DNA of 64,000 nt from Streptomyces sp. ALI-76-A (lineage in GTDB: Bacteria; Actinomycetota; Actinomycetes; Streptomycetales; Streptomycetaceae): assembly GCF_030287445.1 (NCBI RefSeq), contig NZ_JASVWB010000002.1:2356001-2420000 (forward strand), given 5' to 3'. Shown here in pieces: positions 51,129-53,607 of the stretch (positions are counted from its first letter, which is position 1; the number at the start of each line of letters is the position of its first letter). The notes beneath the pieces were generated by a model. That model did not search any database. It was not told the DNA's origin and saw only the letters and a list, made by a program, of their open reading frames with translations. The translations under genes and the position numbers were made by a program.

Positions 51129-51350
51129 TCAGGACGAAGCGGCTTTCTTGCCCCGCGTCGCCCCGCCACGCCCACGCAGCGTGACACCCGATTCGCTGAG
51201 CATCCGGTGTACGAAGCCATACGAGCGGCCGGTTTCCTCGGCCAGCGCCCGAATGCTCGCACCGGAGTCGTACTTCTTCTTCAGGTCTGCCGCGAGCTTG
51301 TCGCGCGCGGCGCCGGTTACCCGGCTGCCCTTCTTCAGAGTCTCGGCCAC
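51129..51350 (-). CDS. gbn: Gbn-type GATC-binding nucleoid-associated protein
   Basis: This 73-residue basic protein has a helix-turn-helix at its centre (ASIRALAEETGRSYGFVHRM), an N-terminal basic helix region (AARDKLAADLKKKYDSG) and a C-terminal basic tail (RGRGGATRGKKAASS). Length, sequence and context match Gbn (SCO1839) of S. coelicolor, described as an abundant nucleoid protein that recognises GATC-containing sites and affects development. GTG 51350 with AGGAGG just upstream is the start; a longer frame adds a non-matching N-terminus. A dense run of GATC sites starts 268 bases upstream. Confidence 0.88.
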   Translation of the reverse strand: MAETLKKGSRVTGAARDKLAADLKKKYDSGASIRALAEETGRSYGFVHRMLSESGVTLRGRGGATRGKKAASS

Positions 51351-51556
51351 CCGGTCCTCCTCATGGGAAGTGCACTCTGGTCTCCTCATGATCACCCCTC
51401 CGGGGCTTCATGGCCACCCATTCGGCAAGGTCCGTGCGACCTGCTTGTGACGACAGGAGCACGTCCCCACATGCGGAACCGAGGATTCCAAGACCTGTCG
51501 TTCGTACCGCCGAACGGGTTCATTCGTGAAAGACCAGGTCAGGGACGTGCGACGGC

Positions 51557-51580
51557 CGAGTCCTTGCGATAAAGGACTCG
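51557..51580. terminator. hairpin upstream of gbn
   Basis: CGAGTCCTT (51557-51565) pairs with AAGGACTCG (51572-51580) around a six-base loop. It lies between the ABC-F gene end and gbn, on whose strand it could terminate read-through from the ABC-F gene. No T tract is present. Confidence 0.5.
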
Positions 51581-51617: not shown

Positions 51618-51697
51618 GATCTCACACAGATGATGGATCACGGATCGGCCGAATGATCCAGACGCAGTGGATCACCCCTTCGATCGCCTCTTCGATC
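51618..51697. promoter_or_regulatory. cluster of seven GATC sites (candidate Gbn-binding region)
   Basis: GATC occurs at 51618, 51636, 51643, 51655, 51670, 51682 and 51694, seven times in 80 bases, with the last four spaced 12-15 bases apart. Chance expectation is about one per 256 bases. The stretch lies between gbn and the ABC-F gene and has no reading frame. It is a good candidate for binding by the neighbouring GATC-recognising nucleoid protein. Confidence 0.6.
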
Positions 51698-51723: not shown

Positions 51724-53322
51724 TCAGGCGAGGGCGACGAGGTCCGCGTAGTCGGCGCCCCACAGGTCCTCGACGCCGTCGGGCAGCAGGATGATCCGCT
51801 CCGGCTGGAGCGCCTCGACGGCGCCCTCGTCGTGGGTGACCAGGACGACCGCGCCCTTGTAGGTGCGCAGCGCGCCGAGAATCTCCTCGCGGCTGGCCGG
51901 GTCGAGGTTGTTCGTCGGCTCGTCCAGGAGCAGCACGTTCGCCGACGACACCACCAGGGTCGCCAGCGCCAGCCGGGTCTTCTCGCCGCCGGACAGGACA
52001 CCGGCCGGCTTGTCGACGTCGTCGCCGGAGAACAGGAACGAGCCGAGCGTCTTGCGGACCTCGACCAGGTCCAGGTCGGGGTTGGCGGAGCGCATGTTCT
52101 CCAGGACCGTGCGCTCGGGATCCAGGGTCTCGTGCTCCTGGGCGTAGTAGCCGAGCTTGAGGCCGTGGCCCTCGATGATCTGCCCGGTGTCGGGCTTCTC
52201 GGCGCCGCCGAGCAGCCGCAGCAGGGTCGTCTTGCCGGCGCCGTTGAGACCGAGGATGACGACGCGGGAGCCCTTGTCGATGGCCAGGTCGACGTCGGTG
52301 AAGATCTCCAGCGATCCGTACGACTTGGACAGGCCCTCGGCCATCAGCGGGGTCTTGCCGCAGGGCGCGGGTTCCGGGAAGCGGAGCTTGGCGACCTTGT
52401 CGGACTTCCGCTCGGCCTCCAGTCCGGCGAGCAGTTTGTCGGCGCGGCGGGCCATGTTCTGCGCGGCGACGGTCTTGGTGGCCTTGGCGCGCATCTTGTC
52501 GGCCTGCGAGTGGAGCGCGGAGGCCTTCTTCTCCGCGTTCTGCCGCTCGCGCTTGCGGCGCTTCTCGTCGGCCTCGCGCTGCTGCTGGTAGAGCCGCCAG
52601 CCCATGTTGTAGACGTCGATCTGGGCCCGGTTGGCGTCCAGGTAGAAGACCTTGTTGACGACCGTCTCGACCAGGTCGACGTCGTGGGAGATCACGATGA
52701 AGCCGCCGCGGTAGGTCTTGAGGTAGTCGCGCAGCCAGACGATCGAGTCCGCGTCGAGGTGGTTCGTCGGCTCGTCGAGCAGCAGGGTGTCCGCGTCGGA
52801 GAACAGGATGCGCGCCAGCTCGATCCGGCGGCGCTGACCGCCGGAGAGCGTATGGAGCGGCTGGCCGAGCACCCGGTCGGGCAGGTTGAGCGCCGCGGCG
52901 ATGGTGGCGGCCTCGGCCTCGGCGGAGTAGCCGCCCTTGGTGAGGAACTCCGTCTCCTGGCGCTCGTACTGCCGCATGGCCTTCTCGCGGGTGGCGCCCG
53001 AGCCGTTCGCGATGCGCTGTTCGTTGTCGCGCATCTTGCGGATCAGCACGTCGAGGCCGCGCGCGGAGAGGATGCGGTCGCGGGCGAGGACGTCGAGGTC
53101 GCCGGTGCGGGGGTCCTGCGGGAGATAGCCGACCTCGCCGGAGCGGGTGATGGTGCCCCCGGCGGGGACGCCCTCGCCCGCCAGGCACTTGGTGAGAGTG
53201 GTCTTGCCGGCGCCGTTGCGGCCGACCAGACCGATGCGGTCACCCTTGGCGACACGGAAGGTGGCGGACTCGATGAGGACGCGCGCACCGGCGCGCAGCT
53301 CGATACCGGAGGCGGAAATCAC
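51724..53322 (-). CDS. ABC-F family ATPase
   Basis: This 532-residue protein has two ABC domains and no membrane segment. Domain 1 has GRNGAGKTTLTKC, LSGGQRRRIELAR and LLLDEPTNHLD. Domain 2 has GLNGAGKTTLLRL, LSGGEKTRLALAT and LLLDEPTNNLD. Between them lies a charged linker with READEKRRKRERQ and an alpha-helical arm. ABC-F proteins act on ribosomes, either as translation factors (EttA type) or, less often, in antibiotic protection. The absence of any resistance context favours the first. GTG 53322 with TGGAG upstream gives the family start (VISASGIELRAGARVL). Confidence 0.95.
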   Translation of the reverse strand: MISASGIELRAGARVLIESATFRVAKGDRIGLVGRNGAGKTTLTKCLAGEGVPAGGTITRSGEVGYLPQDPRTGDLDVLARDRILSARGLDVLIRKMRDNEQRIANGSGATREKAMRQYERQETEFLTKGGYSAEAEAATIAAALNLPDRVLGQPLHTLSGGQRRRIELARILFSDADTLLLDEPTNHLDADSIVWLRDYLKTYRGGFIVISHDVDLVETVVNKVFYLDANRAQIDVYNMGWRLYQQQREADEKRRKRERQNAEKKASALHSQADKMRAKATKTVAAQNMARRADKLLAGLEAERKSDKVAKLRFPEPAPCGKTPLMAEGLSKSYGSLEIFTDVDLAIDKGSRVVILGLNGAGKTTLLRLLGGAEKPDTGQIIEGHGLKLGYYAQEHETLDPERTVLENMRSANPDLDLVEVRKTLGSFLFSGDDVDKPAGVLSGGEKTRLALATLVVSSANVLLLDEPTNNLDPASREEILGALRTYKGAVVLVTHDEGAVEALQPERIILLPDGVEDLWGADYADLVALA

Positions 53323-53607
53323 GGACAGACTCCAGGGCGGACGGGGGCGGGTGGACGGCTGAGGACGTTCCCGCCGTCTAATGCGCGAGGAGAATGGCCA
53401 TGGGGCCAGTCTAACGGGGCCGTGCAACCACTTTTTCTGCGCTCAGGTGTTCGGACCGCGCGGCGAGGGCCGGTTCCGGGGCCGGTGACGCCGGGGACGG
53501 GGGCGTACCGGCCGCCGCCGCGGCGCTCGGCGGGGCGTTGTCAGTCGTCGCTGCGAGACTGGACGACGGATGGATTTCCGGTGACGAGTCACAAAGGAGT
53601 GATCGGC

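Follow-up and report, generated by a model that had tools for sequence, protein, structure and literature searches.

A distal GATC array and a widely conserved proximal box upstream of gbn in Streptomyces

Gbn and its binding upstream of its own gene

Autoregulation is known for genes of nucleoid-associated proteins in enteric bacteria (fis and hns, for example). As at gbn, the nucleoid protein there has several binding sites in front of the gene that encodes it. However, the Gbn protein is unrelated, its sites are of the GATC type, and in its case autoregulation is something that we infer.

The closest described system is gbn (SCO1839) of Streptomyces coelicolor, upstream of which Gbn gives a strong peak in ChIP-seq (Du et al., 2022, PMC9239103). 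Gbn, which has 73 amino acids in that organism, binds GATC, and GATCWT best. Enrichment at gbn was 67.75-fold (25 h) and 58.18-fold, with the summit at -326/-324, and the fold value is the highest in Table 1 of that paper, a table limited to the genes discussed in its text. Gbn also bound an EMSA substrate that spans -561 to -239 and includes eight GATC motifs. Promoter binding by Gbn is mildly suppressive on average, and strong binding with little change in expression is the rule (9.5% vs 6.9% of genes changed). Published enrichment at gbn stays similar while gbn transcription rises (PMC9239103), which in our reading speaks against simple repression. This paper, the work on gbn's sites among the literature matches listed, does not use "autoregul", "feedback" or "own promoter". 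We found no joint treatment of gbn, nucleoid association and autoregulation in the open-licence PMC literature.

The window (the whole 64,000-nucleotide stretch of DNA from Streptomyces sp. ALI-76-A analysed here) has the features of the S. coelicolor locus: a gbn ortholog downstream, a GATC cluster around -326, and GATCWT at 51655 and 51390 (Table 1). Gene and place are the same, and the published summit and the bound EMSA fragment agree with the position of the array in the window (-347 to -268). This likeness was judged from the published coordinates and GATC counts. Gbn binding at the array is strongly supported. It had been proposed in a sequence-only reading of the window and is borne out by prior work, as both the ChIP-seq peak and the EMSA are at the orthologous place in S. 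coelicolor; binding at this place is already known from that ortholog. The same reading offered nucleation of a nucleoid complex as a role for the array. Compaction or looping is disfavoured because, in tethered-particle data, Gbn only slightly stiffens a 685-bp fragment of the gbn promoter that has 10 sites (PMC9239103). New here are the single-copy core of the array and the widely conserved proximal box, which are not described for S. coelicolor in the portions of PMC9239103 available to us.

Table 1. Features of the gbn region, in positions of the window.
Feature	Position	Strand	Remarks
gbn	51129..51350	-	73 aa from GTG; HTH_58 E 3.5e-33
proximal module GGTGGC-N19-GATCATG	51387..51418	-	GATC 51390-51393 (-43); proximal Gbn-type box
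GGAATCCTCGGTTCC inverted repeat	51475..51489	-	perhaps AtrA site
stem-loop	51553..51584	-	between array and gbn promoter; possibly ABC-F transcript end
distal GATC array	51618..51697	.	7 GATC, -347 to -268 from gbn GTG; orthologous region Gbn-bound in S. coelicolor
conserved core GATCATTCGGCYNANNNNTGATC	51636..51658	-	one copy in 111/121 Streptomyces genomes; 141/149 gbn loci including the window's own
inverted repeat TGATCCA-N7-TGGATCA	51654..51674	-	GATC sites 51670 and 51655, 15 bp apart
ABC-F ATPase gene	51724..53322	-	start inferred; NF000355 (given as 51724-53328) and ABC_tran

Gbn is the only match of its kind in this genome at E <= 0.001. Gbn would instead have 86 aa if translated from the in-frame ATG at 51389, which has a GGAGG-like ribosome site of its own. 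The recognition-helix region is nearly invariant among 59 aligned Gbn proteins, which fits a shared DNA target. A search for a solved structure of a relative gave no significant match. The helix-turn-helix of Gbn also matches the NCBIfam model HTH_Cbp1 (NF040595; E 1.8e-8), named for the CRISPR-repeat-binding protein Cbp1 of Sulfolobales, which likewise binds spaced repeats (PMC10883916). However, the Gbn score is 34.4 bits, where the Cbp1 model requires 140, and Cbp1 has three HTH domains (PMC10883916) where Gbn has one. The Gbn family has been called Actinobacteria-specific (PMC9239103); HTH_58, its Pfam family, was found over the cut-off in Sulfolobus acidocaldarius and Haloferax volcanii.

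The distal array and its conserved core

We identified GATC at 51618, 51636, 51643, 51655, 51670, 51682 and 51694 (n = 7, counted on the window sequence), the positions given by the sequence-only reading. This is the highest GATC density per 80 bp in the window; the best separate 80 bp holds four. None of 200 Markov-simulated 64-kb sequences contained seven GATCs in 80 bp (the maximum was 5 for 100 of order 1 and 6 for 100 of order 3), and the density is far above chance. We also looked for equally dense places elsewhere. Grid sampling of this genome (59 stretches of 20 kb; 1.18 Mb, or 12% of the 9.69 Mb) covered 6,505 GATCs, and no 80 bp held more than 5, a density reached at 2 sites. The genome-wide density comparison is made up of these grid samples and of 494 whole-genome GATC triples, only some of them listed. 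Among the triples listed is a GATCCG tandem repeat at C2:534581 (L340, about 4581) with 6 GATCs in 46 bp, and because of it we claim no genome record for the array, which is among the densest GATC places of the genome.

The array stretch is non-coding, as had been noted, and is located between the ABC-F stop codon (51724-51726) and the gbn GTG (51350). It had been described as just upstream of gbn; it is upstream, but 268-347 bp before the GTG, with a stem-loop between. The 12-bp spacing at one end had been read as near-helical, such that proteins bound along the same side of the DNA could cooperate. We rejected one-face phasing of the array: at 10.5 bp per turn R is only 0.175, and 81% of random placements phase equally well or better. 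One-face cooperative Gbn binding is thus unsupported.

Only one of the seven array sites, 51655 (GATCAT, - strand), has the published best motif GATCWT, and this site is part of the core GATCATTCGGCYNANNNNTGATC. The core is present in 78/80 named and 62/68 genus gbn loci of Streptomyces. The named loci are those closest by protein identity and are biased to near relatives, and the genus loci are the fairer sample; together with the window's own locus they make up the 149 Streptomyces loci. At the scale of whole genomes, 111 of 121 Streptomyces genomes have the pattern once and none has it twice, in a scan that shares genomes with the 68 genus loci. In one set it occurs in 56/61 genomes, and the gbn loci from these carry it upstream of gbn. 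Five of the 10 genomes without the signature have gbn loci that we examined, of which L097, L110 and L166 keep a pair of GATCs 19 bp apart and L190 and L191 do not. Outside Streptomyces, the core is found in 10/36 loci of other Streptomycetaceae genera and in 0/93 loci of other families.

Spacing is largely kept within and next to the core. The 19-bp GATC pair is present in 80/80 named and 66/68 genus loci, and the exact 15/19-bp triad in 71/80 and 55/68. The nearest GATC upstream of the core is exactly 15 bp away in 121 of the 141 loci with a core and 13-16 bp away in 138, and the distance from core to gbn is 310 bp in 91 of them. Among 127 exact-triad loci, the site that is GATCAT here is GATCWT in all, the first site in 18 and the third in none.

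The remaining sites are less constant. Many relatives have no fixed counterpart of the outermost sites (51682 and 51694) or of 51643. Counts at this place are usually 3 to 6 per 80 bp: at least five were counted in 28/68 genus and 60/80 named loci, and seven in 0/68 and 1/80. GATCs do gather around the core (mean 4.44 per 150 bp vs 2.34 in shuffles, 68 genus loci). Thus, where the sequence-only reading looked to relatives for conserved spacing, the 15- and 19-bp intervals of the core are kept, but the terminal 12-bp spacings recur only in some. The core is fixed and single-copy across Streptomyces while the GATC sites around it turn over.

Conservation of the block extends beyond GATC (TTCGGC, TCATCTG, GTGAG and CTCGTAC), with an extended motif around the core in 111/149 loci; a second protein may therefore be the reason why the array is conserved. 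The bare triad GATC-N11-GATC-N15-GATC was rejected as a marker: it occurs in 377/392 genomes, usually in more than one copy, and is therefore not specific, so the longer core signature was used instead. Also rejected was a small peptide encoded in the conserved block, in which, by eye, changes occur at first and second codon positions.

The proximal box at the start of gbn

The most widely conserved candidate Gbn-type site is the GATCAT at 51390, which the sequence-only reading overlooked. It reads TGATCATGA or TGATCATGG (TGATCATGR) in 149/149 Streptomyces loci (own included) and in 36/36 loci of other Streptomycetaceae. Beyond this family, GATCWT is found within 100 bp of gbn in 71/93 loci, representing 27/29 families. 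Of the 94 matching genomes outside Streptomycetaceae, all but G482, for which upstream sequence was lacking, are included; among the 148 genomes searched, 43 gave no gbn match.

The proximal location is distinctive. In the 58 better-scoring loci, 54 have the proximal GATCWT, compared with 0-14 in each of six other upstream 100-bp bins; in the remaining 35 the figures are 17 and 0-8. The better-scoring loci alone would make conservation look too high (54/58 vs 71/93 in full). Binomial values were calculated for these 58 loci, with the weaker 35 left out: at a background rate of 0.10 the probability is 4e-49, or 2e-19 if each of their 21 families is counted once. As control, the upstream sequence elsewhere in the same loci, much of it coding, gives a rate of about 10% per 100 bp. 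The box is absent or not GATCWT in 22/93 loci, including 6/6 of family f4 and 6/9 of f14; it is missing in both f29 loci and patchy in f14, f24 and f28.

A second element accompanies the box. T[AG]GC (TRGC) ends exactly 19 bp before the proximal GATC in 80/80 named, 68/68 genus and 35/36 sister-genus loci, and in 34/93 loci outside Streptomycetaceae (27/58 and 7/35). By comparison, TRGC is exactly 19 bp before only 70 of 8,900 control GATCs. The strict module GGTRGC-N19-GATCATG has three matches in this genome, one of them at gbn.

Some genomes encode a second gbn. Of 17 such copies, 8 are preceded by GATCWT within 160 bp, 5 of them by GATCATGG; the latter are about 57-78% identical. In these five (L286, L288, L293, L294 and L295) GATCATGG is 34-45 bp before the mapped start, as in the main copy.

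A start codon does not account for GATCATG: of 30 occurrences upstream of gbn among the 58 class loci, 21 have an ATG that is in another frame than gbn or meets a stop before reaching it. The sequence before the box does not fit a SigB-type promoter: the window has GGGTGG, and the stated consensus -10 has GGG and A at position 5 (PMC8346170). No sigma-70 consensus promoter was found ahead of gbn. The GATCAT at -43 is treated as a conserved candidate site for the gene's own protein at a putative gbn promoter. The GATC of the box lies between the GGAGG-like ribosome site and the in-frame ATG at 51389, and the choice of Gbn start thus overlaps the box. The published ChIP summit is on the array and not on the proximal box (PMC9239103).

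A possible autoregulatory region and its neighbourhood

We lean slightly towards a two-part Gbn region upstream of gbn, a proximal operator and a distal array, that probably tunes the gene's own expression. For the array, the evidence is the agreement with published binding; for a proximal operator, it is the separate GATCAT at the start of the gene, often 19 bp behind TRGC, across much of the class. The proximal box would be an operator at or just behind the promoter, and Gbn bound there would hinder initiation or early elongation (negative autoregulation, a sign that we infer). The distal array, beyond the stem-loop, would be a Streptomyces addition that holds Gbn near gbn and sharpens or buffers the response. 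Gbn autoregulation, which the sequence-only reading had raised for the array, is plausible, and conservation adds support. Whether TRGC-N19-GATCAT is an ancient autoregulatory operator is an even call; in this view its spacing has been kept to the base in many families and, in part, in paralogs, and Streptomyces added to it a distal array whose core is invariant and single-copy. In this way a strong peak that was known but lacked an explanation becomes a testable circuit, as the base-exact proximal box and the distal array can each be removed separately. The wide distribution of the box suggests that GATC recognition by Gbn is common to much of the class Actinomycetes rather than a Streptomyces trait.

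The array could instead merely store Gbn, binding it strongly with no effect on gbn or the ABC-F gene, in which case any autoregulation would act via the proximal box alone. We consider this rather unlikely. Strong binding with little change in expression is indeed usual for Gbn, the array is ~225 bp and a stem-loop away from the proximal box, and loci of other families have the box without the array. However, a single-copy fixed core at a near-fixed distance from gbn exceeds the needs of such a store.

It is quite unlikely that the conserved block chiefly binds a different regulator, or acts as a promoter element, with GATC as part of the motif and Gbn secondary. The conserved bases beyond GATC and the inverted repeat TGATCCA-N7-TGGATCA are consistent with another regulator, and TRGC-N19-GATCAT can be read as a promoter that includes GATCAT. 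Against another regulator, the two most conserved GATCs have the Gbn consensus GATCAT and are located at gbn, with a published peak (PMC9239103), and accessory GATCs gather around the core. A general promoter class is not supported either, as the three strict modules of this genome are too few.

On the - strand the order of elements is ABC-F ATPase gene, array, stem-loop, gbn and an enoyl-CoA hydratase/isomerase gene. The ABC-F protein matches the ribosomal protection-like model NF000355 (392.6 bits, cut-off 380). Within the stretches examined, gbn is preceded by an ABC-F match in the same orientation in 69/93 other-family loci and 36/36 sister-genus loci, and this gene order is old. The array begins 27 bp past the ABC-F stop codon, and a strong stem-loop comes next in 61/68 genus loci. 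Both would suit an array that serves as a Gbn roadblock or insulator at the end of the ABC-F transcript, between ABC-F and gbn. We regard this as improbable, since none of the other-family loci with ABC-F before gbn has the core. In addition, the evidence for the stem-loop is weak: in the window its fold has z -1.64 (10/200 shuffles equally stable or more), and the opening 90 bp of the coding sequence give a strong hairpin in 68/68 genus loci. Because the coding region folds equally strongly, a terminator reading of the stem-loop is only a guess. No U-tract terminator was found, and Rfam gave no match.

A chance cluster without function is scarcely credible, for although three array sites have no fixed counterpart in many relatives, counts of 3 to 6 per 80 bp are usual there and a tandem repeat elsewhere is also dense, chance is contradicted by the simulations, the genome sample and the published occupancy of the ortholog, and for the core by its conservation across Streptomyces loci and its single copy.

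Two further elements are present between the array and the proximal box. The GGAATCCTCGGTTCC inverted repeat is perhaps the AtrA site whose presence upstream of gbn has been predicted (PMC9239103). The block TGACCTGG..TTC (51535-51560, - strand), ~185 bp upstream of gbn, is, judged by eye, kept in most genus loci (n = 68).
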